A DNA stretch of 41,562 nucleotides from a virus. The DNA lies in IMG/VR virus record IMGVR_UViG_3300009512_000025, positions 1 to 41,562 of that record. The stretch is one strand, 5' to 3'. Position 1 is the stretch's first letter, and each line of letters begins with the position of its first letter. The position numbers and the translations under genes were made by a program. Below, in pieces: positions 10,901 through 40,765 of the stretch. The notes beneath the pieces are model-generated. The model was not told the DNA's origin. It did not search any database and worked only from the letters and a program-made list of their open reading frames with translations.

Positions 10901-10908
10901 TATTTATT
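10901..10908 (-). promoter_or_regulatory. T4-type late promoter AATAAATA overlapping a stop codon
   Basis: The minus-strand AATAAATACACTATG is a full late-box match. It overlaps the TAA stop of the giant gene (10904-10906) and begins the transcript for the 213-residue protein and the fibre cluster. The leader carries GGAAGATAAACAC before the ATG at 10875. Confidence 0.78.
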
Positions 10909-13900
10909 CCGGTAACTTTGATGTCTTGGCAGCAATGAACTGACTAATCGGTGAACTGTTTTTAAGCAGCGTAGCGCCGGTTGTAGCAGTGGTTGTGCCT
11001 CTATCGTACCATACTTTTCCTTGTTGTTTAATAATACTAATACGTGTACCTGCGGATGGTACCGTTGTTAGCCTAATATACGCTGTATCTCCGTCAACAC
11101 TAAATTCAGCTTCAACTTTTTTATCACCCATTGGGCTAGTTGCGCTAAGAGTTTCATCGTATTCTTCAATGTAAGTCTTGCGTAATCTTCTACCGCCTGC
11201 AAACACTTCAATCGAATCACATCTTCCGTAAATAGCTGGAATTGCGCCTGCATACCAATCTGTAACAGTACTTAGCTTAGGAACGAACGGTAATGGTCCT
11301 ATTAACTGACTACTGCCATCACTTACGAAGTCATATCTTTCATGTACATCTTTGTAAGGTATAATTTCGTTTTTGCTTAGATCAACTACAAATGAACCTT
11401 TTACAGTTACATTATTAATTCCTGTACCCTGCGAGCCACGTCTTAGTTGTCCTAACACATTGCCTTGCTTAGTCATGTATTCAATTTTCTCTCCATTGAT
11501 CTCAACAATACCAGCTGAATTAATAGTTGATTGTGGATTAAACAATGTTGACGCATCTGTTAATGTAATAGTAGTATCGTAATAATTTAAATCTTTATCA
11601 AGTACAAGACTATCAGTAATTGCATATCTAGTATAATGATTCTTGTTTAACATGTCTTTGCTGACTTCGTATGCACTTGGTAATGCAAATACATTTGTGC
11701 CAAAAGCAACAATATCAAAAACATCACTAGTTACATTTGAGCCTTCAATGTATATTGCTCCTCTAACTACATCTAGTTGATAATCAATATCCTGAGTTAA
11801 CTTTGATCCGTTTCTATAAATCCAAACATAACTTACTGAAAGTGGTTTGAACGCAATTGGGTAAAATGATCTACCGCCAGCGAATTGATCAGTAACGATT
11901 TGCATTGACGGATATTCACTAAACCAAGTTACGTTGATAGTGTCGCCTGCAACTAATGAAGTAGTATCGTTAATAATAATGTTATTACCAACAACAGAGT
12001 ACTGTGCATTTAAATTGTTTTCAATTTTAATAACATCACCCACTGCTAGATTTTCAGCAGTAATTTCTAATTCTTTAGTTGTACCGTTATAAACATAATC
12101 TGTAATGAATGTTCTAAGTTCGTTGTTAATATAAACTTTAATATTAGTTGGAACAATAGAACCAGATGATGCAATAGGATCAATACCTAAAATAAACTTT
12201 TTAACTACACCGTCGTATACATTATAGATAGTATCAGCACTTTTTAGTTTCTTATTATTAACTTCAACAATAGTAGATGCCAATGCGCTTTCTCTAGTTA
12301 GCTGCACAAAGTTATCTAAATCGTAACTTCTAGTACTACCTTCATAAACAAATTCTTGTTGGTTAATTCTAATCAAAGACTGTAATGTACTATCAACATC
12401 AGTAGACGCACCTAATGCAACAATTTTAATAATTGCAAGTCTATCAGGATTTGTACCAAATTGTACTAATGTTCTATCTGGTGTTTCGGGTAGTATGTTA
12501 GTACTACTTCTAAATCCTGTATCTTCTTGTACTCCGTTAACTGTTACAAAGATAGTTGCAGTTTCATCGTAGTTTGCATTTGTTAGATACAAGCTAGTTT
12601 CGCCGTCGGCAATAAACTCTTGGTAATCAAGAATAGCAATGCCGCCTAATCCAATTGAAAGTATTTCAATTTTTGCATTTAATGCAGGTGCAGTTGAAAA
12701 TTCAATAGTGCTAGATGCAATATTAACAACATATGTTGCCGGTAATTGTTTTATACTATCAACATATACAATAACTGATTTAGATTCTAGAATTTTTTGA
12801 CCTATTCCAAACACAGTTGTTGTAGCATCGCCAAGTTTTACAGTTGCATTTAAAGGAGCACCTCTATCCTCTGTTGTATTTTGAAATACTTTAATACTTA
12901 AACTATCTAATACTTGTCCTGGAACATTTTCTTCAGTTGCAGCAACTTGTTCTGGACTAAAATATGAGCCGCCATCAATAACAATATCTTCAGCTCTTAA
13001 TCCTGTTGCTGATGCATAAGCACCTTCCATTGCTGACAATGTGCCACCTGTTAATTGTGTATCTAATAAGTTAATATCATTAATAGTAACAGCGCCATCG
13101 CTTTCCGCAGGACGGAATATTAATATATCGCCTGTTTGTGTTGATACATTTTCTCCAATATGAACTATGTTAGTACTACCATCTCCAACAAATGTCGGCA
13201 TTTGTGCATGTGGATTAACAGTACTTGATGAATCCCAACTTTCTGTGTAGTTTGGATCGTCAATTCTAAGTGTAGGAGGTTCTTGTACACCTTGTTCAAT
13301 TTGTAGATCTTGAATATCGTCTTGTATAACAATACCTGCTCGTTTTAAGTAGATGTTAATTACTTGACCGTCTGCTGGTGTGTATGGTAATACTACATCA
13401 AGTGTGCTACCGTCTGCAACATGGTAGTAATCAGCCGATGCTTCTACACTATCCCAACTATCAGTAAACCAAGGTAGAGCGTCCCAGCCTCCAGTTACTT
13501 CAAATGTTGTTCCTTGTACTTGAACTCCACCAAAATCAATTCCTGTCATAAGCTGGTCAAGCTCGTCACCGAGCATGCCTGAGACCGGAGAATAGTATTT
13601 GTTAATTCTACTAACACTATCTAAAATTTCATCGTTTTTCTGATATGTAATTTTAATTGTATCACTTGCTGCCGGTGGTGTATTAAAGGTAATTTTACCT
13701 TTAAGTTGTTTATAAACATCAGAGTCTAATGTGTACAACGAAATATTGTATTCGTTGTCAAGAACAAGTTGGCCGTTCTGTATAATTGTAATATTTGACT
13801 TTTGTCTAGTAGGAGGATATGTTAAATTAAACACCGCAGTTGAACCCGTTGCTACAAAATTCTCTTCTTGAGTAAAGTTTTGATAAAGTCCTGTTTTAGA

Positions 13901-16900
13901 GAGCCTATCAAACTTAATACCAAGTTGCATTGAACGTGCTTTACCGTTACCTAGAATAGCAACAGCGTTGGCAGTGTTAGGTGATGTACCATTTCCGCCA
14001 ACTAACGTTACTGTTGGGGTTGATGTGTATCCAGCACCGTGTTCAGATAGTCTAATTCCAACTACTTTTCCACTAGTAATATATGCTGTTGCTTTAGCTC
14101 CAGAGCCTCCGCCGCCAGTGATCAATACTCTAGGAGCTTCTGTATAATCAGCACCTTTATTAGAAATATTAACACCTGTAATCTCATATCCTTTATTGTC
14201 ATTCCAATATTTGTATGGATATGTGCTTACTATTTTATCGTTTGCACTCACAGGAACAATTTTGCCTGCTTCTGTTGAGTAGTAAGGAGGTAAATCAAAG
14301 TCTGATATACCTGCATTAGCAGTATCAGTAGTATCATACTTACTGATGTATTCTCTTACTGTTGTACTATATGGTTTAACTTCATTAATATAATCTAAAT
14401 AACTTTCTAAACTGTCATTTCTATAATTTGTTTTTTGTTTTAATGTTCCAACATTGTGAGTTGCATTTAAGAAACTAGTTTTAAATGCCCAATCAACGTA
14501 TGTTTGTTCAGCAAATACATAACGCACTGATGTAAAGAATAATTTATTCCACTCAACAGCATAATCACCAATACAAATATCTTCTTTAATTGCTTTCATA
14601 ATGTATCTTAACTCAAATGATACTTCTTTATCATAAAAGTCAATATCAAAGCTATCAACATTATCATAACCTACACCATTTAATGATGCGTCATACAATA
14701 AATTCGATAGTTGAATAGTACCTAGTTCTCTACCAATTAATACATAATTGTTTAGGCCTGCATTTTCAGTATCAGTAACTTTTCTAAACACTGCCCAGCC
14801 GCCGGAGCCATATTCTTTAATACGGATTAAGTCGCCAATTGAAACCTCAATAGTTGGAAGTTGATATACACTAATTATTTCTTGAATAATTCTTGATGTA
14901 GGACCAAAGTCATTATCCCACCAATCAGCGTAGGACCAATATGCTGGTGTGTTAAACGCTTGAGATCTACTTCTGTAAAAAGTTTTTCTTACATCGTCCC
15001 ATGAGTAAATGCTCCAAAAGCCTCGTGCTGTAGAATCACTGTTAACTAACACACTAAACTGTCTTGGTTTAGTAATAATTGTAGTGTAAAGTTTACCTGG
15101 ATTTACAATAGTAACTCCAGTTACTCTACCTTGGCTATCAATGGTAGTAGTTGCTTCTGCGTTTACACCGTCACCTTCAAATTCGATAGAAGGAGCAATT
15201 TTATAACCAAAGCCCGGATCAATAATATCAATAGAATTAACTTCGTTGTCAATGATATTTGACCTTAATTTACACGCTTTAACTCTAGTAGTACCAACTT
15301 CTAATAAATCAATATAAGTGTCTGCTGTTGTATCATACAAGTTTAGTAATACACTTGGCTCAGAATCTACACTATTAAGTGTTTTAAAATTAATAGAATC
15401 TGCAAACGCTTCGTTGTGCAGCACTTTATTAATATTAGTAATAAGTGTTTTTAGGATTGCCCTTCTCTCAACAAACATACTTTGTCTTGGTCTAAAAGCA
15501 ATACCATATTTTTGTTTTTCAGGAAGATCTGATGCAGGTATTCTATTACCTTGTATATCACGCCCTACCAAACTATCAATCCATTTATTTTCTAATGATA
15601 AACTAGGTAAGCTGTCTGAAACACCTTCTGTTAATAGTTGGTATTCGTTGTGTACTTGATTTTGTTGTTCAGTTGAATTATAATATTCAATGTTAAACAA
15701 TGAATAATCTTCTGTAACTGTTGACTTATAGTTGAATAGTAAAAACTTGTCTGTATCAATAAATGCTGCATAGGTTTGTCCTAATGCACTAGGATCGTTA
15801 ATTAAGTTAAACACATCGGCAGCTGAAATATCTCTATCAGTATTGCTTGGTACAGTTACTTTTCCTTTAACCCAGAAGTAATAAAGTGTTTCTGTTTGTA
15901 ATCCAGTGTTAGGATTATAATCCTGTCTAACGCAATATGCAGAGTCGTCTGCATACAGTGGTTGCCCTGAAATACCCAACGGTACTCCTTCGTTAGTGTC
16001 TGCTAAAATTGCCCATTCAGATGGAAGTAATTTTGATTCTACCCATTCGTAAATATCAATCGATGCGCCAGGTGCTAATGCTCCCCATGATCCAATTCTA
16101 TATGATGCATCACCTTGCTCGTAGTCATACCATTTAGCTGTAGAAATATCCCACCATAGTTTACCTACGTTAGAAGACTTCCAGCATATCGAGCTATCAA
16201 TAACCGCATCGGTTGCTGTGCCATTGCTATAAATTGCAGGATCGTATGGAACTTTAAACGATAGTTCTCTTTCTGCTGCTGCTAATAATTTTAATTTAGC
16301 AGGATCAAATATTTCAATGTCAATAATTTTTGTATCATCAACAGTATCATAAAGTGATAATCTTTTAAATTTATCAATATCAACTGTAAGTGGCTGTGAT
16401 CCAATAATGTTTAATGAATTAGAGTTTGTAGTTTTTTCAAATAAACGTACTGTACCTGTCTTGTCGCCTTCAAATGCAATATTAACTCCGTGCGGTGCTG
16501 GAGAAATATATCCAGGTGAGCCAACTAGTATTGCATCTCTCGATGCTGAAATACTATATCCAAAAGATTCATTTAATGAAAGCGCATCATCAAGTTTTTC
16601 TGTTAAGAAGAATGTTTCAGATGTGCCTTTTTTCTCAAATACATAAACCGCTCCAGCAAACCCGTCATAGTCTTTAAATCTAGTTCTAGTTCTATCAAAC
16701 GATGTTTGTGAAGCATCAAATCTAGTTTGTAATGCATAAGGAGAATTAGTTGCTCCTACTGCAATAATTTCTGTTCCGCTAGATATTGAAATATCTTGTC
16801 CAAACATTTCATTTGGATAATTTGTAAAACTTGTTAATTTCTGTTTTAATCTATAAGCATACTCTGTTGAGTCTGAATCATATTTGAATACATACGCACT

Positions 16901-19900
16901 TCCTTGATTCTGGAAGTTCTTATCTGCTAGTGGGCTAGTTACAACTAGTGTATTACCAGTATAATCTAATGCAATTGCAAATCCAAATTTATCGCCTGAG
17001 CTAATAACTTCACTTGCATCAAGGTCACTTAGGTATGGTAATGAATCTGCATTAATTTGTTGAATTAAATTATAAGCACCTGAGTTAGTATCTTTCTTGT
17101 AAAGGAATACTTTTCCTGAAGCAGTATCTGTACTATCTCCAACATTAACCCAAGGTTGGCCAGCATCAGGCAATTCGTTGTAGCTTCTAATAGTGCTATC
17201 AGCACCTACTGCATTTGGACCTTCGTTTTGTAATTGGTGATATGTGCTTTGAAATTTTACAACATCACCGTGCTTATATTCATAATTGTTTTTCCACAGC
17301 CCTTTATAATTTGGAAAATACTGCCCGTCACTATTAGGTGCTCCAACAGCTAGTATTGTTCCATTATAATTCATTGCTAGTGAGGTACCAAAACGATCAT
17401 CTTGTTTGACCATTTCAAGTATTTGATTCTCGTCAAGTATTCCTGCATCTAATGTTGATCCGTCATCGCCAGTTGCAAGTGATTGTGGTAAAGATGCACC
17501 TGTTGTAACTGGATCCATTACTTGCCAGTCATTTGAGTAAAGTGTTAATGAACTTCCGTCGGATACATTATCAACTAATGCTTTCCACATTTCACCGTTT
17601 GAATAAACAATCGATCCTTTAGGATAAAAAGTAGAATCATCAGCAGCATATGTGCCTCTATAATTCTTGTTATAATCTAAGCGCCAGCCATCAGTAGCAT
17701 TGTATGTATAAAGATACACACGCCCTTTGTTATCCTGAGAACCCGGTGCAGATACTGCCATAAAATATGTGCCAGCGGTATCTTTGCTTAATGTAATTTT
17801 TGAACCGAATCTTTCACGAGCATAAAATCTTGGACTTACTTGTATATCAATTAAATTCCACTGTTGAGAACCATACTGGTATATAAACATTGCTCCAGTT
17901 TCAAAATCTCCTGCATTTGACCCGCTACTAACTGCTTTTATGTTTTGTACTTCTGTCCATTCATTACTGTAAACATCAATAGTACTACCGTCACCTTGAA
18001 TGTTGTCAGTAGCTTTGTAAAGTCTTCCAGCATACAAAACAATATCACCAATAAGATAGTTTGCATTTACATTAAAAGCACCTTTATAGTTACTTGTAAT
18101 TCCACTTGCTAAAGGAGCTCCGACTACAAGCCATTCACTATCAGGCGAAATTGCAATTTCGTTACCAAACGATCCAGTAGCTGCTGATTGCGCCCAAACC
18201 GGTGGCTCTAATAATTGCTTAGATGACAGGCCAGTAGCAGTTTTAACATAGATACCTACTTTACCTTCGTCTGGAATACCAACAATAGCTTGTTTTAACA
18301 AATCACTGTATACTGTTTTCTTGCCAACACTTTCTGGAGTAGTAATACCAAAATCAATAATTTTACTTGGTGTAAATTGTTTTGTTTTTTCTGCTACTTC
18401 CCAACGTCCATTTACATTAGAATCTACAAATACTTTTGAGCCGTTAGTTAATAGTGCAACATGTTCCGGATTCATTGATTCATAAGATCCAAATCGTGCA
18501 GTAGTAAGAAGCATTGGATATGTTGCTGTGCTAGGATCATATCCATCAGCTGCATCAAACGTTTCTGTATGTTGTACAGTTATAGAAGTAGTAGTTGCTG
18601 CTTTAACTTTCCAAAATTTGTTCAACCCTACAATAGTAGTAATACCAAACATGTCATCAACTTTTAGCATGTGTGCTTTATCAAAGTCAAATGTTACTTC
18701 GTTGTCATCATTACTTGTAACGTTGGTTATTTTTAAATCATAAACAGTATTTGCTCTAAGTACTGTCCAAGAAGGCCCATCAAAGGTTACCCAAATGTGA
18801 CTGTTGTCGTTAACTAGTGAAATATCTAAATCTAAAATACTATCTTTGTTTGTAACTGTAAAATCTACTTGACCAAATTTCACATACCCTGCTGTTTTAA
18901 CAGGTTTAGAATCGTAACTAACAGGACTAATGTTAGTTGAATATGGAGTTGGCGCATATTGAAAGTTTGTTTTATCAATTCTATAATATCTATCAACTGT
19001 AGTTTCTGCCGAAGGTTGTATAATAACAGGCTGCGGATTTAATTGAAATTTATCTGTTTCTAGTTTAATTTCAATTTTTGTAGACTGATCAACTCCGCCT
19101 AGTTGGCCTACTCTAAATCCCCATTCTTCGTTTAGGTCAACTGCTGATGTGTTAGTATCAGCACCTAATTTAGTAAACAATTTTGTAACAGCGTTGTTTG
19201 TGCCTTTTTCTCTAATAAATCCTTGATACAATTGAAACTGAGTAGTTGGATCTTCAGATAAGTTTTCTAAATAACTTCTAGTTTGATAACCTATTGTATG
19301 CCTTGCTAAATCTCTTTGGCTTTTGCCAAGTCCTTCAGAAGAAACATCAAAGTAATCTTCAATTTGATTAATTCTATAATCAAAGTTAGGAATCAATTGC
19401 TTAACTGGCTCTGAATCTAATAAGGTCCAGTTGCTGTCTAAGAAAGTTTCGTCACTAGTGTGATTGCTTCTTGCAGTATACTTGTAAGATCTATAAGAAA
19501 CAATATCGCCTAATTTATAATCATAGTAAGGAGACCATGTTCCAATAGAAACATTATCAAACAAAAATCCAGGACTAGTATAATCACCATCCCAATCAGT
19601 TGTTCTAAATCCCTGGGCTTTGATTCTTTCTTGTCTATAACCTGTCGCTTTATCAAAAATAGTATCGTTGAATACTGTTTTATCATCAAATATTGCTACA
19701 TGCTCTTTAACAACATAATTTATTTTTAATAGATAAATGCCTTGCGTTGTATCTGTTGTACTAATTTCAACATTTTGAAAACTTCTTGATACATCTAAAA
19801 ACTGAGGATCTAATGCAGACCCGTCTGCGTTTAGTACATTGTAATCGTAGAAACCATCTAATAGACTTTCAGCAACACCAACTGCAAGATTAATGTCCAT

Positions 19901-22900
19901 ACGTGTTGCGCCAGGACTAACTGTTAGGATAGATCCTTGTGCCCAGTTGTGAACTGACCAGTACATAAATTCTTTTGCTGCTGTTACAAAATCTTGTACT
20001 ACCTGATTAGTGCCGTCATAGTTTGCAAAATTAAAACCTTGTCCTTTAAGATATTCTTGATACCCTAGTAGAAAATCTACTACACTTTGAATAGTATTAA
20101 ATTCTGTTCCGTAGCTAACATTAACAACATCAAAAGTATTAAAACTTCTTCTACGCTGTGCTATTACAGCATTATCAACTGGTAGGTCTGGAAGTTTAAC
20201 TAGTTTATCTTCACTAAACGTGTCTCCTTGAGTGTGAGTAGAATTAGCTCTGTAAAATACTCCTCTATAAGAAACAATTTGTCCATTATTAAATGTTTTT
20301 CCTGCTTCCCATTCTGAATACGCTGCTGAAGTTCCTGCAACTGAAATTACAGGATCTTTCTGAAGCGGATAAGGTGTATATGTTTTAAAATACGGATTAA
20401 CATTATCGTATCCGTTAATTGTCCAACCAGACGCTGTCTTTTCAAAAATCACACCACTGTATGTTGCTGAAGAAATTGGTGAACTCACATTAAAGATAAT
20501 GTCATAGTTTTCTTGAGGTATAAACACACTAGTACTCGACGAACTAGGATTCTTACTATCTAACAAGTATCGTTGTTGCTCTTGGTCAACAAATCCGCTT
20601 AGTCTAGAAGTAAGCCTAACATTGATATTAGAAATAGTTTTTTGTGCTTCAGATATCAATTCACCTTGAGATTTAATATAAGATGAAAGATAGTACGATA
20701 GTCCAGCAACTTGAGTTGTTCCTGAAACTGGAAGCTGTAGTTGGCTAAGAGTTAAAAACGTATCTGTAGTGGTATGCACTAGCTGATTAATAATATTACG
20801 TTTTGCAATAGCTCTATCAAAGTTTAAAATTAAGTAATCAAAAGGCTTTAACAATGCCAATGCAGTAGTAACTGCAAATGGATATTCAGAACTAGATTTC
20901 CATGCATATTCAACAGGACTAACATCTCCTAGTTTGAACGAGCCTCTGTTGTTTATAAGTTGGAAGTTACCTGCAAGTCCTGACGTTAGCGGGTCTAATA
21001 AGTTACCGTCACAGTCGCATGGTATATGAGTTAATATACTTGGTCTTGCATATCTAGGATAAATTCCAGCTGTAGTACCTTGTGCAATTTTACCAGCTTG
21101 AATATCTTCCCATAAAACTAAGTTACCGTTTGTGTACGGTGCTGCTCCATATTCTGTATCCCACCAAGTTGGCTTTTCTGTAAAACCAAGCATTTCCCAT
21201 GGATGAGTATGTGGTCTATCAGTATCATAAAAATGCTTGTACACTCCTCTCCAATATCCCGGCAAGTTTACAGTGCCTGTTGGGTCTGTCATATTTGAAT
21301 ATGTATATGTAAACGGCTCACCATCAACAAAGGCATCATTTACTGTATATGATAAATTAGTATTTTGTACCCAAGATAAAAACTCTTGGTTAATAACGCT
21401 ATCTAGCTCTTCTTTTGTAAATGTTGCATTGCCATAATATCCGCCTAATGCTTTATCGATATCAAATACAGCAGGATCATATTGTTGCTTAATGTTGTTA
21501 TAAATTCTGTATTCAAACTCTAAAAGTAAATCATCTCTAAAGTCATCATAGGATGTTGTTTTACTACCATCATGTCCTTGAATTACATTCTTAGGAGTTC
21601 TATAAGTATCGTCTAAATACATCTCAGGTTTGAACTTAGGATATACTCCAATTGAAGTAGGCGTTGGAGGAACATGGCTAAATGCCGTTGACACATATTC
21701 TCTAATTTCTATTCTGTCGTCTTCTTCTAGTGTAGTTGAAATATCAATAAATCCAAACGCACTATTAATTGTGTAATCAGTATTAACTAATAGCTGATTG
21801 TCGTTTAAGTAAACATACACAGCTCTTCTACTAAGTGTATCTAAATTAAAATTCTCAGTTAACGTAAAAGTTGTAATACCAATATCTGCTACAATATATT
21901 TTGTTGATGTAAACGCTCCTGCACCTATCATATCAGAATCAGCAAAAGGACTGTCAATAGTTTTAGTCTTTGTCATTGACTCGATAATTGTATCTAAGAA
22001 ATCAGCAGTGTTATCGTTAAACTCTAGTATAGTTGACTGTTTAATAATATTTTGTTTAAAAACAGTATAAGCATTTTTAGCATGTCTTAGCGATTTTACA
22101 ACGTTAAGATCTTTATCGTTGATTAGCATAGTTGATACTGCTGCAAATCCAGAGTGTTTAAGGAATCGTTTTGAGTGCTTTTGATAATCTGCTAAATCTC
22201 TAAGATTAGAAACACCTGGAATTGCGCCAACTATTCTTTTATCAAATTCTAAAGACGATTTTAAATGATCAGATGCTTGACCTAATGTGAATGTTTTAAG
22301 TTGTTCGTTTAGAGGATTTTTTTCTATGCCTACTGGAATTTCGTAGTAACCTTTATCAGGCACAATATCTGCTACTACTTTAATTGTAATAACATCGTTA
22401 ATTGCAAAAGTTTTTTCAAAAGTAAACTGCGAAGATGCTCTTGTATACGGAGTACTAATAGCTTCGCCGTTAAGGTAAAAATTAATAATAGCGTTACTAG
22501 GTAATTTTTCCCAGTCAACAGTTTCAAACACTGCTACTGAGTCAGCAACAGTTAATGTATAAGAATCAACAATCGGTTGAAGGAATGTTTTATCAGTAGC
22601 AATCCACCCATTAACATACATGTCATTAATTTTATAATACCCAACATTAGTATTTTTAGTATACTGTGTTTGAGATAAAGTATAAACAAACTTATCTGTT
22701 TCAAAATTCCAATCAAAAACAATATCTCCAACGTTATTGATATTGGCATACTTTAATGCAAACCCTAATTCAGTATCTGCGGTGCCAGTTCCAACTTTAT
22801 AACTTACAAGATTAGATCCAACAAATGTTGACACAGGATATGTTACTGCATCACCAAAAGATACTCCACTACTATCAAACACATCAAACAATGGTGATTG

Positions 22901-24682
22901 ATTAGCTTTTATTTTAGCCTGACTCTTAACCCAGTTTGTACCGTTATAATGATACATTCTGCCTGAGTTTGCAGTTCCTCTACGTATTAATACAGCTTCG
23001 TTAAACACTGAATCTGAATCTGCTGTTTCTTTTAAAGTAATTTGTGTTTTATTGTTATGCTTAACAAACTTAACTTCGTATATTTTGTTATTTGCTTGAT
23101 TGTCTGTATCAGAAATTACAAGAACTCTTGCTCCTTCAAACAAAAACTCTCCGTCAACATTGTAGCCTTCGCTTCCTTCAATGTTAGAAAACACATCAGT
23201 AGTAAAGTCATCAACATAGTCAACAGTTTGTTTTGCAACAGCACCATGATTAAACAATTGAATGTTAGGTAAGAACTCAATAATTGGACGTTTAGCTCTT
23301 GCAGTTTCTAACGAGTCAAAATCTTGGCCTCTAAGTCTAAATGCTTGTTCTAGTACAGATCTATGAAACCATCTATTATATCTTGACCACGGATTAGAAT
23401 CTTTGCTATTTCTTGCAATAGTGATATAATCTTTATTACCAGGATATTGAGTTGCATCATCAAATGGCTGTGTATCAAATCCTTCATTATCAAACAAAAT
23501 TTCCGGTGTGTCGGTTGCAAGTGGTGGTGGAACTAAATCAGCAAAGTTAATTAATGTGATACTATCGCCCACACCTTCAACTAGCCATGTGTTGTTTGCA
23601 TATTTTGCAGGCTCAACCTGTCCTCTAAAATCTACAACTAGACCGTTTGTAAATGCTAGTCCGGTTGCTGTGGTATAATCTTTTTTACCAACAATTTCTT
23701 TATCAACGTTGATGAATGTGTTTGAATCAATGTCAGCAATAATAAACCTACCTAATCTGTTAGGTGATACATCACTTTGATAATATAAAATATCAGGTGA
23801 GTTGGCTGGAACTGTAAATGTAATTGTTCCAACTGTTGTACCATTGCCTTCAACTCCCTGATTGTATAGTAGCGATGCAAATGCTGCATCGTTAGCTTCT
23901 AATTTCCAATCCTGCGAATCAACTGTAATACTACTTCCGTCTAAAATACTTGTGTTATTAATACACTTCCATAACTTTCCGTCAAATACTGCTAGTTCAC
24001 CAGCAAAATATGCTTTGTTAGGATTAAAAATTAACGACCCAGTATCGTAATTACTTCGAATGTAAAACCCTTCTTGAGGAGAGTTTACTTCAAACTTATA
24101 AGTTTGGCCTCTGTATAATGTGATGTCTGGATTATCAGTAATATTATCAGGTGAAAGTACCCAGCTATTAATTCCTGTCTTTACTTTATAAGTACTTTGA
24201 ATATTAGATGCTTGTCCGTATACATCTACAGACGGTGTTCCTGCTGGCACCCAATAGTATTCTCTGTAGTTAATAAACTTGTCCCAATTAACAGGTGGGT
24301 TCCAACTGTAATGCTCTTGCTCTGTTGTTTTGTCATCGCGCTCGTTAGTATTGCCAAAAAATTCCAACATACTTTTAAGATCAATGTAGTCATTAAACTT
24401 TTTAACTTCTTGATTTTCTTCAACAGTAATTCCGGGCTCTAATTGATAACGACTTCTTAATGTTTGATCATTATCAAGATATACATCTTTCCCGTTATAC
24501 GTTTTACCGTAACGCTTTCCAATATACCCAACAGTTTTGTCAACAACACCTGGTTGTACAAGAGGATCTAATACTCCTGATAAAAACTTTTTATTTGCAG
24601 GAGTTTGAAAAACTGTAGGAAGAAAGTCTGAGCTGTTTCTAATTGGAATATCGCTCTTAGGAAACTTTTTCTTGTCTGCCAT
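10904..24682 (-). CDS. Giant 4592-aa baseplate/tail-tip protein (FG-GAP propeller, carbohydrate-binding-like and Ig-like modules)
   Basis: One uninterrupted 13.8-kb gene coupled to gp6 by TAATG, in the place of T4 gene 7. Residues 1-160 hold a phage-specific N-terminus (IPIRNSSDFLPTVFQTP, DYIDLKSMLEFFGN, NWDKFINYREYYWVP). About six short modules of the type GDIVSYRSYKYTARSNHT, resembling chitin/cellulose-binding domains, lie near 212-258, 1454-1495, 1712-1757, 2199-2244, 2341-2389 and 2457-2517. Residues about 2170-2750 carry six FG-GAP-like blades (FGSKITLSKD, FGTSLAMNYNGTILAVGAPN, FGFAIALDYTGNTLVVTSP). GYxxxPxV-GGGGSGA repeats occur near 3140-3210 and 3500-3565, and repeated beta-sandwich modules run from about 3610 to the end. 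Likely an extended baseplate-wedge or tail-tip protein that also contacts glycans; function inferred. Confidence 0.8.
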   Translation of the reverse strand: MADKKKFPKSDIPIRNSSDFLPTVFQTPANKKFLSGVLDPLVQPGVVDKTVGYIGKRYGKTYNGKDVYLDNDQTLRSRYQLEPGITVEENQEVKKFNDYIDLKSMLEFFGNTNERDDKTTEQEHYSWNPPVNWDKFINYREYYWVPAGTPSVDVYGQASNIQSTYKVKTGINSWVLSPDNITDNPDITLYRGQTYKFEVNSPQEGFYIRSNYDTGSLIFNPNKAYFAGELAVFDGKLWKCINNTSILDGSSITVDSQDWKLEANDAAFASLLYNQGVEGNGTTVGTITFTVPANSPDILYYQSDVSPNRLGRFIIADIDSNTFINVDKEIVGKKDYTTATGLAFTNGLVVDFRGQVEPAKYANNTWLVEGVGDSITLINFADLVPPPLATDTPEILFDNEGFDTQPFDDATQYPGNKDYITIARNSKDSNPWSRYNRWFHRSVLEQAFRLRGQDFDSLETARAKRPIIEFLPNIQLFNHGAVAKQTVDYVDDFTTDVFSNIEGSEGYNVDGEFLFEGARVLVISDTDNQANNKIYEVKFVKHNNKTQITLKETADSDSVFNEAVLIRRGTANSGRMYHYNGTNWVKSQAKIKANQSPLFDVFDSSGVSFGDAVTYPVSTFVGSNLVSYKVGTGTADTELGFALKYANINNVGDIVFDWNFETDKFVYTLSQTQYTKNTNVGYYKINDMYVNGWIATDKTFLQPIVDSYTLTVADSVAVFETVDWEKLPSNAIINFYLNGEAISTPYTRASSQFTFEKTFAINDVITIKVVADIVPDKGYYEIPVGIEKNPLNEQLKTFTLGQASDHLKSSLEFDKRIVGAIPGVSNLRDLADYQKHSKRFLKHSGFAAVSTMLINDKDLNVVKSLRHAKNAYTVFKQNIIKQSTILEFNDNTADFLDTIIESMTKTKTIDSPFADSDMIGAGAFTSTKYIVADIGITTFTLTENFNLDTLSRRAVYVYLNDNQLLVNTDYTINSAFGFIDISTTLEEDDRIEIREYVSTAFSHVPPTPTSIGVYPKFKPEMYLDDTYRTPKNVIQGHDGSKTTSYDDFRDDLLLEFEYRIYNNIKQQYDPAVFDIDKALGGYYGNATFTKEELDSVINQEFLSWVQNTNLSYTVNDAFVDGEPFTYTYSNMTDPTGTVNLPGYWRGVYKHFYDTDRPHTHPWEMLGFTEKPTWWDTEYGAAPYTNGNLVLWEDIQAGKIAQGTTAGIYPRYARPSILTHIPCDCDGNLLDPLTSGLAGNFQLINNRGSFKLGDVSPVEYAWKSSSEYPFAVTTALALLKPFDYLILNFDRAIAKRNIINQLVHTTTDTFLTLSQLQLPVSGTTQVAGLSYYLSSYIKSQGELISEAQKTISNINVRLTSRLSGFVDQEQQRYLLDSKNPSSSSTSVFIPQENYDIIFNVSSPISSATYSGVIFEKTASGWTINGYDNVNPYFKTYTPYPLQKDPVISVAGTSAAYSEWEAGKTFNNGQIVSYRGVFYRANSTHTQGDTFSEDKLVKLPDLPVDNAVIAQRRRSFNTFDVVNVSYGTEFNTIQSVVDFLLGYQEYLKGQGFNFANYDGTNQVVQDFVTAAKEFMYWSVHNWAQGSILTVSPGATRMDINLAVGVAESLLDGFYDYNVLNADGSALDPQFLDVSRSFQNVEISTTDTTQGIYLLKINYVVKEHVAIFDDKTVFNDTIFDKATGYRQERIKAQGFRTTDWDGDYTSPGFLFDNVSIGTWSPYYDYKLGDIVSYRSYKYTARSNHTSDETFLDSNWTLLDSEPVKQLIPNFDYRINQIEDYFDVSSEGLGKSQRDLARHTIGYQTRSYLENLSEDPTTQFQLYQGFIREKGTNNAVTKLFTKLGADTNTSAVDLNEEWGFRVGQLGGVDQSTKIEIKLETDKFQLNPQPVIIQPSAETTVDRYYRIDKTNFQYAPTPYSTNISPVSYDSKPVKTAGYVKFGQVDFTVTNKDSILDLDISLVNDNSHIWVTFDGPSWTVLRANTVYDLKITNVTSNDDNEVTFDFDKAHMLKVDDMFGITTIVGLNKFWKVKAATTTSITVQHTETFDAADGYDPSTATYPMLLTTARFGSYESMNPEHVALLTNGSKVFVDSNVNGRWEVAEKTKQFTPSKIIDFGITTPESVGKKTVYSDLLKQAIVGIPDEGKVGIYVKTATGLSSKQLLEPPVWAQSAATGSFGNEIAISPDSEWLVVGAPLASGITSNYKGAFNVNANYLIGDIVLYAGRLYKATDNIQGDGSTIDVYSNEWTEVQNIKAVSSGSNAGDFETGAMFIYQYGSQQWNLIDIQVSPRFYARERFGSKITLSKDTAGTYFMAVSAPGSQDNKGRVYLYTYNATDGWRLDYNKNYRGTYAADDSTFYPKGSIVYSNGEMWKALVDNVSDGSSLTLYSNDWQVMDPVTTGASLPQSLATGDDGSTLDAGILDENQILEMVKQDDRFGTSLAMNYNGTILAVGAPNSDGQYFPNYKGLWKNNYEYKHGDVVKFQSTYHQLQNEGPNAVGADSTIRSYNELPDAGQPWVNVGDSTDTASGKVFLYKKDTNSGAYNLIQQINADSLPYLSDLDASEVISSGDKFGFAIALDYTGNTLVVTSPLADKNFQNQGSAYVFKYDSDSTEYAYRLKQKLTSFTNYPNEMFGQDISISSGTEIIAVGATNSPYALQTRFDASQTSFDRTRTRFKDYDGFAGAVYVFEKKGTSETFFLTEKLDDALSLNESFGYSISASRDAILVGSPGYISPAPHGVNIAFEGDKTGTVRLFEKTTNSNSLNIIGSQPLTVDIDKFKRLSLYDTVDDTKIIDIEIFDPAKLKLLAAAERELSFKVPYDPAIYSNGTATDAVIDSSICWKSSNVGKLWWDISTAKWYDYEQGDASYRIGSWGALAPGASIDIYEWVESKLLPSEWAILADTNEGVPLGISGQPLYADDSAYCVRQDYNPNTGLQTETLYYFWVKGKVTVPSNTDRDISAADVFNLINDPSALGQTYAAFIDTDKFLLFNYKSTVTEDYSLFNIEYYNSTEQQNQVHNEYQLLTEGVSDSLPSLSLENKWIDSLVGRDIQGNRIPASDLPEKQKYGIAFRPRQSMFVERRAILKTLITNINKVLHNEAFADSINFKTLNSVDSEPSVLLNLYDTTADTYIDLLEVGTTRVKACKLRSNIIDNEVNSIDIIDPGFGYKIAPSIEFEGDGVNAEATTTIDSQGRVTGVTIVNPGKLYTTIITKPRQFSVLVNSDSTARGFWSIYSWDDVRKTFYRSRSQAFNTPAYWSYADWWDNDFGPTSRIIQEIISVYQLPTIEVSIGDLIRIKEYGSGGWAVFRKVTDTENAGLNNYVLIGRELGTIQLSNLLYDASLNGVGYDNVDSFDIDFYDKEVSFELRYIMKAIKEDICIGDYAVEWNKLFFTSVRYVFAEQTYVDWAFKTSFLNATHNVGTLKQKTNYRNDSLESYLDYINEVKPYSTTVREYISKYDTTDTANAGISDFDLPPYYSTEAGKIVPVSANDKIVSTYPYKYWNDNKGYEITGVNISNKGADYTEAPRVLITGGGGSGAKATAYITSGKVVGIRLSEHGAGYTSTPTVTLVGGNGTSPNTANAVAILGNGKARSMQLGIKFDRLSKTGLYQNFTQEENFVATGSTAVFNLTYPPTRQKSNITIIQNGQLVLDNEYNISLYTLDSDVYKQLKGKITFNTPPAASDTIKITYQKNDEILDSVSRINKYYSPVSGMLGDELDQLMTGIDFGGVQVQGTTFEVTGGWDALPWFTDSWDSVEASADYYHVADGSTLDVVLPYTPADGQVINIYLKRAGIVIQDDIQDLQIEQGVQEPPTLRIDDPNYTESWDSSSTVNPHAQMPTFVGDGSTNIVHIGENVSTQTGDILIFRPAESDGAVTINDINLLDTQLTGGTLSAMEGAYASATGLRAEDIVIDGGSYFSPEQVAATEENVPGQVLDSLSIKVFQNTTEDRGAPLNATVKLGDATTTVFGIGQKILESKSVIVYVDSIKQLPATYVVNIASSTIEFSTAPALNAKIEILSIGLGGIAILDYQEFIADGETSLYLTNANYDETATIFVTVNGVQEDTGFRSSTNILPETPDRTLVQFGTNPDRLAIIKIVALGASTDVDSTLQSLIRINQQEFVYEGSTRSYDLDNFVQLTRESALASTIVEVNNKKLKSADTIYNVYDGVVKKFILGIDPIASSGSIVPTNIKVYINNELRTFITDYVYNGTTKELEITAENLAVGDVIKIENNLNAQYSVVGNNIIINDTTSLVAGDTINVTWFSEYPSMQIVTDQFAGGRSFYPIAFKPLSVSYVWIYRNGSKLTQDIDYQLDVVRGAIYIEGSNVTSDVFDIVAFGTNVFALPSAYEVSKDMLNKNHYTRYAITDSLVLDKDLNYYDTTITLTDASTLFNPQSTINSAGIVEINGEKIEYMTKQGNVLGQLRRGSQGTGINNVTVKGSFVVDLSKNEIIPYKDVHERYDFVSDGSSQLIGPLPFVPKLSTVTDWYAGAIPAIYGRCDSIEVFAGGRRLRKTYIEEYDETLSATSPMGDKKVEAEFSVDGDTAYIRLTTVPSAGTRISIIKQQGKVWYDRGTTTATTGATLLKNSSPISQFIAAKTSKLPE

Positions 24683-34578: not shown

Positions 34579-34662
34579 TTTGGTAATATTTCCTCTTAAT
34601 AATACTATTTATTTACGGAATAATGTGCTATTATATTACTTATACAACTGGAGAACTAACTG
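34579..34662. promoter_or_regulatory. Divergent control region between tail and gp55 blocks
   Basis: An 84-base gap between divergent genes. Leftward it carries the late box at 34606-34613. Rightward there are -10-like hexamers (TATTAT at 34629-34634) but no matching -35 at normal spacing, so a sigma-70 promoter for gp55 is not convincing. A GGAGA ribosome site at 34650 precedes the gp55 ATG at 34663. Confidence 0.5.
34606..34613 (-). promoter_or_regulatory. T4-type late promoter AATAAATA for the baseplate operon
   Basis: The minus-strand AATAAATAGTATTATTAAGAGG matches NATAAATA fully, 27 bases before the ATG at 34578, with an AGAGGA ribosome site between. It is the first late promoter of the leftward baseplate block. 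Confidence 0.78.
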
Positions 34663-38326: not shown

Positions 38327-38599
38327 ATGGCTACAGACTCTCATGATGAAATGATTGAAGCGTTTCAAAACTACTTTAAGTGGCAAGATCGTTTTGAATA
38401 TCATGATAGTGATGAGGCTGGCATCAAGGCACGTTTTTGGTTAAGCGAAATACGAAAACATGCAAGTACTAGGAGATTAGAAATACAAGATAAGCGTACA
38501 GATAGGAAAGTAGCCAGAAAGGGCATGATCGGTAGACCCAAGAAAGTAAGTACTACTGATGACGACCCCACAATGGACATTCCAGAACAAAATAGTTGA
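38327..38599 (+). CDS. Small basic hypothetical protein (90 aa)
   Basis: A 90-residue protein starting two bases after the gp46 stop, in the same operon. Residues 1-55 look helical and aromatic (MIEAFQNYFKWQDRFEYHDS, AGIKARFWLSEIRKHASTRR), followed by a basic patch (QDKRTDRKVARKGMIGRPKK) and an acidic tail. The basic patch and the operon position suggest nucleic-acid contact, possibly an accessory to gp46/47, but no family is recognised. The last 41 bases overlap the next gene in another frame. Confidence 0.65.
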   Translation: MATDSHDEMIEAFQNYFKWQDRFEYHDSDEAGIKARFWLSEIRKHASTRRLEIQDKRTDRKVARKGMIGRPKKVSTTDDDPTMDIPEQNS

Positions 38600-38999
38600 A
38601 ACACTTCCGGAAGGATGTGAAGGTTTTGTATATTTGATTACAAACCTAACTAACGATCGCAAATATATAGGCAAGAAATTAGCAAAGTTTAAAACTACTA
38701 AACCACCGCTAAAAGGCAGAAAGAATAAAAGACGTGGGTACAAGGAAAGTGATTGGAAAACCTATTGGGGATCATCAGATAACTTACTTGCAGACGTAGA
38801 AAAATTAGGCAAAGATAAGTTTACCCGGGAAATAATTCATTATTGTCCCAGCAGAGGCGTGTTAAGCTACTTAGAGGCTAAAGAACAATTTGATCGTAGA
38901 GTACTAGAAACTAACGATTACTATAATGGCATAATCAATGTAAGAGTAGGCAGTTCGAAGGTCTTAACAGAGGCACTACAAAAAATAAATGGCTCTTAA
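38559..38999 (+). CDS. SegE-like GIY-YIG endonuclease
   Basis: A 146-residue protein. GFVYLITNLTNDRKYIGKK (residues 22-40) is the GIY-YIG signature in its VYL...YIG variant. WKTYWGSSDNL (about 65-75), REIIHYCPSRG and YLEAKEQFDRRVL carry the downstream conserved Trp, Arg and the likely catalytic Glu of the SegE-type subgroup found in T4-like phages. No DNA-binding NUMOD helix is obvious; the basic stretch KPPLKGRKNKRRGYK may bind DNA. The start at 38559 overlaps the previous gene by 41 bases and has a weak ribosome site, so expression may depend on coupling. It may be a free-standing homing endonuclease or a domesticated nuclease acting on DNA intermediates. Confidence 0.82.
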   Translation: MTTPQWTFQNKIVETLPEGCEGFVYLITNLTNDRKYIGKKLAKFKTTKPPLKGRKNKRRGYKESDWKTYWGSSDNLLADVEKLGKDKFTREIIHYCPSRGVLSYLEAKEQFDRRVLETNDYYNGIINVRVGSSKVLTEALQKINGS

Positions 39000-39394
39000 T
39001 TTTTATTTTATACACAACTATCAATAATACACAATATATCCTCAGGCAGTACGAACAGCAAATAAACCGTTAAATAAGCCCGCCACGGCGTTGTTATGTG
39101 GCCCAAAGTCCGTTCTGATGTGTGACGGTAAGGAATTCTGGTTAACGGCAGAGATATGACAGCACTATCCTTAACAGGACGATGATTGGATACGCCTAGA
39201 ACAACCGGTTTGCTGTATATTAATAAAACAAATTTTCTAATAGGCTAAAAGAGCAGGTAATTCCTGCAGGTTTACTATGTAAGGTAGTATTTGTATAGTA
39301 AACTGCCGTTGTAACAACGAAACTAAGACGGAATGAGTAGGTATCGGATAACCGCCTACGCTATGTTTAATAAAAGCATTGTAGTTCTAATACT

Positions 39395-39489
39395 ATTGTG
39401 ACTGTGCGAACTCAGATGATGTTCAAAATTCATTCTTGGCCCGGTAACGGGCTAATTGTGACCATACAATCTAGATGATGCTAAAATTG
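39395..39489. repeat. Imperfect direct repeat at 60-base spacing flanking a hairpin
   Basis: Copies begin at 39395 and 39455. Both read ATTGTGAC, ten to eleven variable bases, AGATGATG, two to three bases, AAAATT. Between them lies the GCCCG-GTAA-CGGGC hairpin (39439-39452). The conserved blocks with variable interiors look like a duplicated RNA or protein-binding element. Confidence 0.7.
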
Positions 39490-39582
39490 CTTCGCAATTA
39501 ATATTAATGTTTATTTTTACACTATTAAGTATCTAGATAATTAAAAGCGAAGCATAAGGCTTTGAGCGAAAGCGAAAAAGCA

Positions 39583-39600
39583 GAACAGCTTTAGCTGTTC
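39583..39600. terminator. Strong hairpin, possible terminator before a late promoter
   Basis: GAACAGC TTTA GCTGTTC forms a perfect 7-bp stem. On the plus strand it is followed by TTAAATAAAT, not a clean U-run. Read on the minus strand it is followed by TGCTTTTT, a better terminator tail. It could insulate the late promoter at 39604 or form the 3' end of the candidate RNA. Confidence 0.35.
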
Positions 39601-39603
39601 TTA

Positions 39604-39611
39604 AATAAATA
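39604..39611 (+). promoter_or_regulatory. T4-type late promoter AATAAATA (rightward)
   Basis: AATAAATAACATATATG matches NATAAATA fully, 35 bases before the ATG at 39647, with AGAGG as ribosome site. It is the only full late box seen on the plus strand in a gap, so the two genes that follow are late genes, unlike gp55-gp46 before them. Confidence 0.75.
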
Positions 39612-39646
39612 ACATATATGAATACAAAGTATAGAGGTCTCTTAAA

Positions 39647-40765
39647 ATGCGTTTAAATGAAATTCTGATTGAAAAACAACTTGACGAAAAGCCTATGGGT
39701 TTTCTAAGTAAGTGGGCAAACAAGCTAACACCTACTAATGCTGCTACAGGTAGACTGCAGAGTGGCAAGGAAGCAAATGAACTTAAAAAACAATTTCAGA
39801 TATTTCTTGGACAAAGCAGACAAAAAGCTGAACCAGAAGTTCTTATTAAATGGCTAGCTACTAAAGGGTATCCAACTAAGGGTGCTGAAGCAGAAATGCA
39901 AAAAGCCACTACAGGACAAGTAATTGGTAAAGCACTAGGTAAAGGCGTTAAAGCTGTTGGCAAAGGTATTGCAGCAGTTGGCAAAGGAGCTGCCAATGTT
40001 GCTAAAGGCGCAGTAGCAGGAGCGAAAGCAGCAAATCCAGCACCAGTAGCAGTAGATAAAAACTTTGACAAGACCCAACGCATGGGTAACTTTGGAAAAG
40101 TTGGAATGCAAACAGCATCAGTAGATTTTACAAACAAAGATTCAATTATGGAAGCACTTAGTGGCGGCCAATTAGACAACATTTTTCTTAGAGCGGTTGG
40201 GGACAAGTATGCCCAACAAGGTGGCGTTTCTAAAAAAGGAACAGGTAGTGCGCCAGCAGATGCTCAACAAGGCGGAGCACTTGGAGTACCAGGAGCAATT
40301 GACGGAGTTAAACAAGGTTTCACAGGCGACAAACCAGCAGCAGCTGGCGCCACAGACGCTAGTACAGCGTCAACAGCAGGTAGTAAGCCACAAGCGGTAC
40401 AAACACCAGCAGCGCCAACTAATCCAGCTAAACAAGAGCCAGATAATACTGCGGCACCGGCAGCAACTAATGCGCCACAAGCGCAAACACCAGCTAATAC
40501 AACTGCACCGGCTGAACCACAAGCACAAGCTAATACAACTCCACCGAAAGCAGCAGCGCCGGCAGCACAAACACCAGCTGAGCCAAAAGCAGCAGCACCA
40601 GCAGCAACTGATGCTCCACAAGCACAAGCTGAGCCAGAAGCTGAACCAACAACACAAGCTGCACCAAAAGCAGCAGCACCAGCAGTTCAACTGCCTAAAG
40701 ATATTCAAACACAAATTGATAAGCTAGACGCAAAGCAAAAACAAGAACTTTTAGGAATGCTATAA
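39647..40765 (+). CDS. Late protein with possible capsid-targeting N-terminus and Pro/Ala-rich tail (372 aa)
   Basis: Residues 1-20 (MRLNEILIEKQLDEKPMGFL) resemble the short capsid-targeting peptides of T4 internal proteins; LIE-K and LDE-K are near the (L/I)-x-E cleavage rule of the gp21 prohead protease. Residues about 90-130 are a Gly/Ala/Lys repeat (GKALGKGVKAVGKGIAAVGK), amphipathic and possibly membrane- or DNA-active. Residues about 225-350 are a Pro/Ala/Gln/Thr low-complexity linker, ending in a short helix (IQTQIDKLDAKQKQELLGML). A late promoter lies just upstream. No known family recognised. Inferred: an internal head protein or other packaged protein; a scaffold-like role is an alternative. 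Confidence 0.7.
   Translation: MRLNEILIEKQLDEKPMGFLSKWANKLTPTNAATGRLQSGKEANELKKQFQIFLGQSRQKAEPEVLIKWLATKGYPTKGAEAEMQKATTGQVIGKALGKGVKAVGKGIAAVGKGAANVAKGAVAGAKAANPAPVAVDKNFDKTQRMGNFGKVGMQTASVDFTNKDSIMEALSGGQLDNIFLRAVGDKYAQQGGVSKKGTGSAPADAQQGGALGVPGAIDGVKQGFTGDKPAAAGATDASTASTAGSKPQAVQTPAAPTNPAKQEPDNTAAPAATNAPQAQTPANTTAPAEPQAQANTTPPKAAAPAAQTPAEPKAAAPAATDAPQAQAEPEAEPTTQAAPKAAAPAVQLPKDIQTQIDKLDAKQKQELLGML

Follow-up and report, generated by a model that had tools for sequence, protein, structure and literature searches.

The Polynucleobacter-1 RNA motif is the 5′ part of a larger structured phage RNA with two near-identical, co-varying sequence elements

The window analyzed here comprises 41,562 bases of IMG/VR virus record IMGVR_UViG_3300009512_000025 and carries T4-like genes, among them those for a late sigma factor, gp47- and gp46-like nuclease subunits, the baseplate, and other virion proteins. 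No ORF of 60 or more amino acids is present between positions 38999 and 39647, in agreement with an earlier note on this DNA, which had described the stretch as gene-free and as lying beside a nuclease gene between early and late genes. The gap indeed separates an early-type block (late sigma factor, gp47/gp46-like, SegE) from a late-type gene (Table 1). Despite the GC-rich patches noted there, the region is not GC-rich overall: the RNA described below has 37.7% G+C versus 36.1% for the window. T4-like late promoter boxes (TAAATA) are found on the − strand at window positions 34610, 34606, 28101, 3004, and 289, and on the + strand at 39602–39611; they immediately precede structural genes and the ORF following the gap. 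A similar box at the start of the RNA (39071, UAAAUA) was rejected as a late promoter because relatives do not conserve it. On the − strand, positions 10904–24682 form a single ORF of 4592 aa beside a baseplate wedge gene; the largest ORF at a comparable place in Methylophilales phage Melnitz, the closest isolated phage by SegE (76% identity), is ∼2130 aa.

The earlier note had proposed a large phage RNA of no recognizable family. Contrary to the latter point, the Rfam covariance search that it suggested (cmscan) returned RF01718, the Polynucleobacter-1 RNA, at 63.4 bits against a gathering cut-off of 37, with the full model (positions 1–141) aligned on the + strand to the first 144 nt. This was the only Rfam match in the whole window, and the remaining ∼500 bases of the gap yielded none; GOLLD and ROOL, which the note had named for comparison of length, were not found even at E-values up to 5. 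Conserved sequence and structure nevertheless continue past the Rfam-covered 5′ part to about 39601. The resulting length of ∼540 nt is similar to that of GOLLD and ROOL. The RNA almost certainly extends beyond the Rfam model, and the previously known part is its first quarter only. In the discovery paper, Polynucleobacter-1 was listed as probably an RNA and probably cis-regulatory, with Burkholderiales and fresh water or estuary given as its sources (PMC2864571); no other paper naming it or its accession was found in the open literature searched.

To examine covariation, relatives were gathered via the SegE protein and via DNA patterns in viral contigs. Two search motifs were used, CACTATCC..GGACGA in the Rfam part and GGTAYCGGAYRACCGCC ∼150 to 180 nt further on. 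Both were found in the same order and on the same strand at at least 187 viral loci initially and at at least 216 with relaxed matching, which were reduced to 120 clusters of <85% identity. Since both motifs served for fetching, their own conservation is by construction; the covarying columns lie almost entirely outside their fixed letters. The 120 representatives were aligned in blocks between two anchors, a tree was built with FastTree, and APC-corrected G statistics were compared with those of 20 null alignments in which tree and substitutions were kept and columns randomized. This test imitates R-scape, and its E-values, obtained from an exponential tail fit, are approximate. At E < 0.05, 36 of 134,940 column pairs covaried, spanning 39084 to 39600 and including a long-range pseudoknot. 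Most are Watson–Crick, as exemplified by 39331–39387 (GC 53, CG 38, AU 12, UA 10; E = 1e-11). In a separate check, 39 loci were realigned with MAFFT defaults and a 76-pair structure including pseudoknots was counted, giving a covariation score of 0.302 as compared to 0.140 ± 0.006 for shuffled alignments (0 of 500 as high) and 0.08 to 0.14 when partners were slid out of register. P1, P3, and PK1 were poorly paired in the MAFFT alignment, probably as a result of misalignment. G-U outnumbered A-C in paired columns (1067 versus 223), consistent with the + strand, to which the structure was fitted. The predicted + strand fold of 39000–39646 (−152.6 kcal/mol versus −138.4 ± 6.7 for 20 dinucleotide shuffles, none as good; z = −2.1) is suggestive alone but too weak to decide. 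Covarying pairs across 120 non-redundant loci, with no sign in relatives of a decayed gene, together with the fixed gene position and the ∼540-nt extent, strongly support the proposed large structured phage RNA, which is almost certainly real and under selection.

Table 1. Elements of the RNA and flanking genes, in window coordinates
Feature	Position	Strand	Details
SegE-like GIY-YIG endonuclease	38559–38999	+	Pfam PF19835, 118 bits; neighbor of the RNA, outside it
Whole structured RNA, ∼540 nt	39062–39606	+	Ends approximate; viral homologues with both motifs, covariation
PK1 5′ strand, CCGUUAA	39067–39073	+	Proposed pairing with UUAACGG in P3 loop (39142–39148)
5′ domain, Rfam RF01718 Polynucleobacter-1 RNA	39077–39220	+	cmscan 63.4 bits, gathering 37
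P1 hairpin	39082–39102	+	39082–39086 with 39098–39102; 39084–39100 E = 8e-7; 39086–39098 E = 1e-4
P2 hairpin	39110–39128	+	39111–39127 E = 2e-6; 39115–39122 E = 3e-5
P3 hairpin	39136–39153	+	Loop holds proposed PK1 3′ strand; 39136–39153 E = 0.005
P4 helix	39159–39216	+	39159–39163 with 39212–39216; encloses P4a (39168–39179) and P5 (39184–39210)
P6 and P7 hairpins	39253–39303	+	P6 39253–39267, 39255/39266 E = 0.006; P7 39270–39303
PK2	39285–39395	+	P7 loop UAGUAUU (39285–39291) with AAUACUA (39389–39395); 39289–39391 E = 9e-6
P8	39308–39352	+	GUUGU (39308–39312) with AUAAC (39348–39352); 39310–39350 E = 4e-6
P10	39331–39387	+	39331–39334 with 39384–39387; 39331–39387 E = 1e-11; 39332–39386 E = 8e-9
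P9, inside P10	39337–39341 with 39355–39359	+	91% of cells paired
Repeat copy 1, GUGAC...GAACUC-AGAUGAU-G	39398–39424	+	Code AGAUGAU at 39414–39420
P11 hairpin between the two repeats	39436–39455	+	GUAA loop in window; 39438–39453 E = 0.05; 81% of cells paired
Repeat copy 2, GUGAC...CAAUCU-AGAUGAU-G	39457–39484	+	Code AGAUGAU at 39473–39479
UGAGCGA-n-AGCGA conserved hairpin element	39563–39574	+	39566–39573 paired in 99% of loci, 39567–39572 in 96%
3′-terminal hairpin	39582–39601	+	39585–39598 E = 7e-8; 39588–39595 E = 7e-7
ORF downstream of RNA	39647–40765		Flanks the gap on its downstream side

At least 10 hairpins can be named (P1, P2, P3, P4a, P5, P6, P7, P11, 39487–39497, 39566–39573, and 39582–39601), in line with the nine or more first counted. 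Both GNRA loops seen at the outset are present, GUAA in CCCG-GUAA-CGGG (39443–39446) and GAAA in GC-GAAA-GC (39568–39571), and neither stays GNRA in every relative. Within the 5′ domain, the putative pseudoknot PK1 comprises seven Watson–Crick pairs in the window, and a complementary run of at least five bases occurs in 72 of 120 loci as compared to 37% for swapped loci, giving the interaction moderate support. The P4 column pair 39160/39213 covaries (E = 2e-4), although gaps displace it by two relative to the window register. P5 is paired in 100% of cells, individual pairs showing as many as 14 double changes (39187–39207, E = 3e-6). Further 3′, P7 exhibits double changes in nine of nine pairs. 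PK2, paired in 80% of cells, is also supported at 39288–39392 (E = 2e-4), and all 15 changes at 39289/39391 are same-branch. P8 forms part of a GGUAYCGGAYRACCGCC block and is paired in 100% of cells, with 24 of 24 to 25 changes at 39310/39350 on the same branch. The 3′-terminal hairpin received a terminator-like score on the − strand only and is probably a bidirectional terminator.

Four of the 36 covarying pairs are identities rather than base pairs, all at an offset of 59 nt, and connect two direct repeats that flank P11 (consensus GUGRC...NNA-CUC-xGAUyAn and GUGRC...NNA-UCU-xGAUyAn). These pairs are 39414/39473 (G-G at 65 loci, A-A at 50; E = 3e-7), 39418/39477 (A-A at 72, G-G at 46; E = 2e-5), 39409/39468, and 39408/39467. 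Each repeat contains a 7-nt code that varies between phages. In 100 of 119 clusters the two copies have exactly the same code; mean code identity within an RNA was 0.968, versus a maximum of 0.764 in 500 shuffles among phages. The first code base changed on the same branch in both copies in 24 of 27 cases, 23 times to the same base, and same-branch changes were likewise seen at the second (9 of 9) and fifth (8 of 8 to 9) code bases. Gene conversion between the repeats is unlikely, and was rejected, because the triplets adjoining the code almost always differ and have not been homogenized (CUC in 111 clusters for copy 1, UCU in 113 for copy 2).

The 7-mer complementary to an RNA's own code was absent in all 120 RNAs, and no RNA column strongly tracked the code except its twin copy, which led us to reject pairing of the code within the RNA. 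A pairing of copy 1 with copy 2 proposed by RNAalifold was also rejected: other codes do not support it, and at one of its pairs just 54% of loci have a standard base pair. Because the RNA holds no complement of its code, we infer that the twin elements probably bind the same partner in trans. We lean toward an RNA rather than a phage-specific protein as this partner, since the code makes use of all four bases and is free to diverge. Code complements in flanking DNA numbered 89 versus about 70, a slight enrichment at most. One recurrent complement site, in the gp46-like gene ∼1.2 to 1.6 kb upstream of the RNA, fits codon choice plus kinship. There, a conserved YYLD motif is encoded by TATTATCT, which complements code AGATAATA; TATTATCT was found in 8 of 21 phages with code AGATAATA and in none of seven with code GGATAAT, a match that could be due to kinship.

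A protein reading two DNA copies would likewise force identical changes, and the twin elements might be iterons or recombination sites that a phage protein recognizes as DNA, with the RNA fold merely bracketing them. Integrases do lie near chromosomal copies of the RNA, including one whose neighborhood contains a candidate defense system (below). We consider this explanation improbable: the repeats sit inside an RNA with covarying helices on both sides, the CUC and UCU triplets beside the code differ in a fixed way, and no third or fourth repeat copy was found beside the locus in the window.

The family is large, spanning aquatic phages and some bacterial chromosomes, and extends beyond the loci used for covariation. 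When the sequence downstream of SegE in 80 relatives was compared with a DNA profile of the RNA, 30 matched, and many such loci match profile positions 283–448 only, corresponding to the 3′ domain, with different 5′ parts, which indicates that the 3′ domain is constant while the 5′ part is replaced or fast-evolving. A perfect 7-nt twin code is found in 35 of 80 SegE-downstream and 9 of 23 DUF6641-upstream regions, as compared to a frequency of 0.000 in shuffled sequence. Of 398 Burkholderiaceae genomes, seven (1.7–2.2 Mb) contain RF01718 at E ≤ 0.001, six of them over the cut-off, consistent with the Burkholderiales and fresh-water occurrence given for this family. The chromosomal copies also carry the 3′ domain, with twin codes such as AACAAAA, AGAGAAA, and AGCGAAA, and lie divergently upstream of a DUF6641 gene in seven of seven cases; several further DUF6641 loci have related RNAs that Rfam misses. 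One small Burkholderiaceae genome has up to four DUF6641 copies (L447–L469), some with a twin-code RNA divergently upstream and others with a different ORF there. Three loci (L469, L449, and L451) have another 5′ domain (AAACGCGGGTTGTAATA...GCCCGCAC) ahead of the same terminal hairpins, possibly representing a second subtype or a separate RNA. One chromosomal neighborhood (L440 490–4959) contains a PADLOC PDC-M33 A–C candidate defense system and a type II methyltransferase, and another (L444 1147–8464) DrmD-like, type III methylase, and restriction genes. A pattern scan of genome contigs returned 78 stretches that were attributed to chance, none having the second motif. Blastn searches of 50,697 phage records, made with the RNA in three versions, gave no match.

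As an alternative, the RNA might be a structural homo-multimer of the GOLLD/ROOL kind, assembling in many copies into a cage or ring with the twin elements as docking sites. A conserved 3′ and variable 5′ region is also a property of GOLLD (PMC12286853), the size is similar, the setting is likewise phage or mobile island, and two identical contact sites per chain would suit a symmetric assembly. However, identical, non-complementary sites cannot pair directly, most codes are not self-complementary, and Rfam matches to GOLLD or ROOL are lacking, so that we regard such an assembly as unlikely.

Gene order bears on two further explanations. The SegE gene lies directly upstream on the same strand in 188 of 199 RNA loci with enough upstream sequence, as might be expected if RNA and nuclease formed a mobile unit, with SegE spreading or processing the RNA in the manner of IscB and its RNA. 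The adjacency can, however, reflect inheritance, since synteny extends over the gp55-gp47-gp46-SegE block as a whole; genes resembling gp46, gp47, and sigma are found further upstream of the RNA loci. DUF6641 takes the place of SegE beside the chromosomal copies, and in phage Melnitz the SegE gene is located beside nrdB, with no match to the RNA across the whole genome. We consider a unit of this kind very unlikely. The RNA might instead be a cis-acting 5′ or 3′ UTR element that controls SegE or the gene downstream. In favor of this, the next ORF is co-directional in 56 of 103 clusters, and Weinberg et al. flag Polynucleobacter-1 as probably cis-regulatory in their table (PMC2864571), a listing that also speaks against a trans-acting RNA. 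The opposite orientation in the other 47 clusters argues against cis control of that gene. Moreover, the downstream gene is not conserved (the window's ORF is present at 19 of 216 loci), a hairpin ends the RNA before it, and the chromosomal neighbor is the divergent DUF6641 gene. We judge cis regulation a doubtful explanation with little probability. A common short N terminus (MRLNEILIE, MKIYEIISE, MKVYDIISE) is shared by the ORF at 39647–40765 and, in 35 of the 56 co-directional clusters, by the first ORF downstream of the RNA. It resembles the capsid-targeting peptide of T4 internal proteins, and these ORFs may encode packaged, injected proteins.

Taken together, the pattern is best explained by a ∼540-nt noncoding RNA that likely acts in trans as a two-handed binder of lineage-specific specificity, a reading drawn from comparative sequence analysis and consistent with the fixed order and strand of both halves at at least 216 loci (120 clusters). 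By sequence comparison, the + strand RNA folds into a 5′ scaffold, composed of Polynucleobacter-1 plus P6–P10 and the pseudoknot, and a 3′ domain in which two near-identical recognition elements flank a hairpin, with the terminal hairpin closing the molecule. The same partner in trans would read the code twice, and the RNA might serve as a scaffold, sponge, or adaptor; it would be produced along with the end of the SegE-carrying transcript or cut out of it. In its widest form, we consider it an evenly balanced proposition that this is an unrecognized class of large RNA in T4-like aquatic phages and bacterial islands, bearing two lineage-specific address codes that co-evolve with one partner and acting as a two-handed guide or adaptor RNA whose phage and island versions have different codes. 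Polynucleobacter-1, listed in Rfam since 2010 as a 141-nt RNA of unknown function, is a fragment of a much larger RNA, for which hundreds of sequences and clear covariation are sufficient to build a structural model and define a new Rfam family. It is unusual for two parts of one RNA to covary by identity, and this provides a direct handle on function; the common 3′ domain in phages and chromosomal islands, two of them with defense genes, points to phage–host or phage–island contact. Since none of the isolated phages in the collection searched was matched by blastn, the practical way in is through a cultured strain that carries a chromosomal copy.

Compared with known systems, the closest is Polynucleobacter-1 itself, to which the window's 5′ domain fits over the whole model and six chromosomal copies score 83 to 96 bits. 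In contrast to that model, which ends at 141 positions, the RNA runs ∼380 nt further and adds P6–P11, two more long-range pairings, and the twin-repeat domain, and among the sequences found it is mainly a phage RNA. Group I and II introns are not indicated, the only match being a group II hit of 15.9 bits, below the 34.5 cut-off, and the RNA lying between genes; nor is an OMEGA/HEARO-like nuclease RNA, as the Rfam search gave no HEARO match and the neighboring SegE is a GIY-YIG rather than an IscB/TnpB-type nuclease, with DUF6641 in its place in chromosomes. GOLLD and ROOL are often near tRNA islands, whereas the window has no tRNA, tRNA island, or tmRNA (ARAGORN, Rfam) and no covariance match to either. 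ROOL resembles the present RNA as a large pseudoknotted phage RNA of unknown function. GOLLD, a large phage or prophage RNA, shares with it a conserved 3′ and less conserved 5′ region, and both GOLLD and ROOL form cage-like assemblies (PMC12286853). The twin elements themselves, placed in one large RNA on either side of a hairpin and with no known reader protein, differ in these respects from lambda boxB. The boxB elements in nutL and nutR are duplicated phage RNA recognition sites read by one phage protein, and the likeness to them is that each phage carries two copies of one RNA element that are kept alike.
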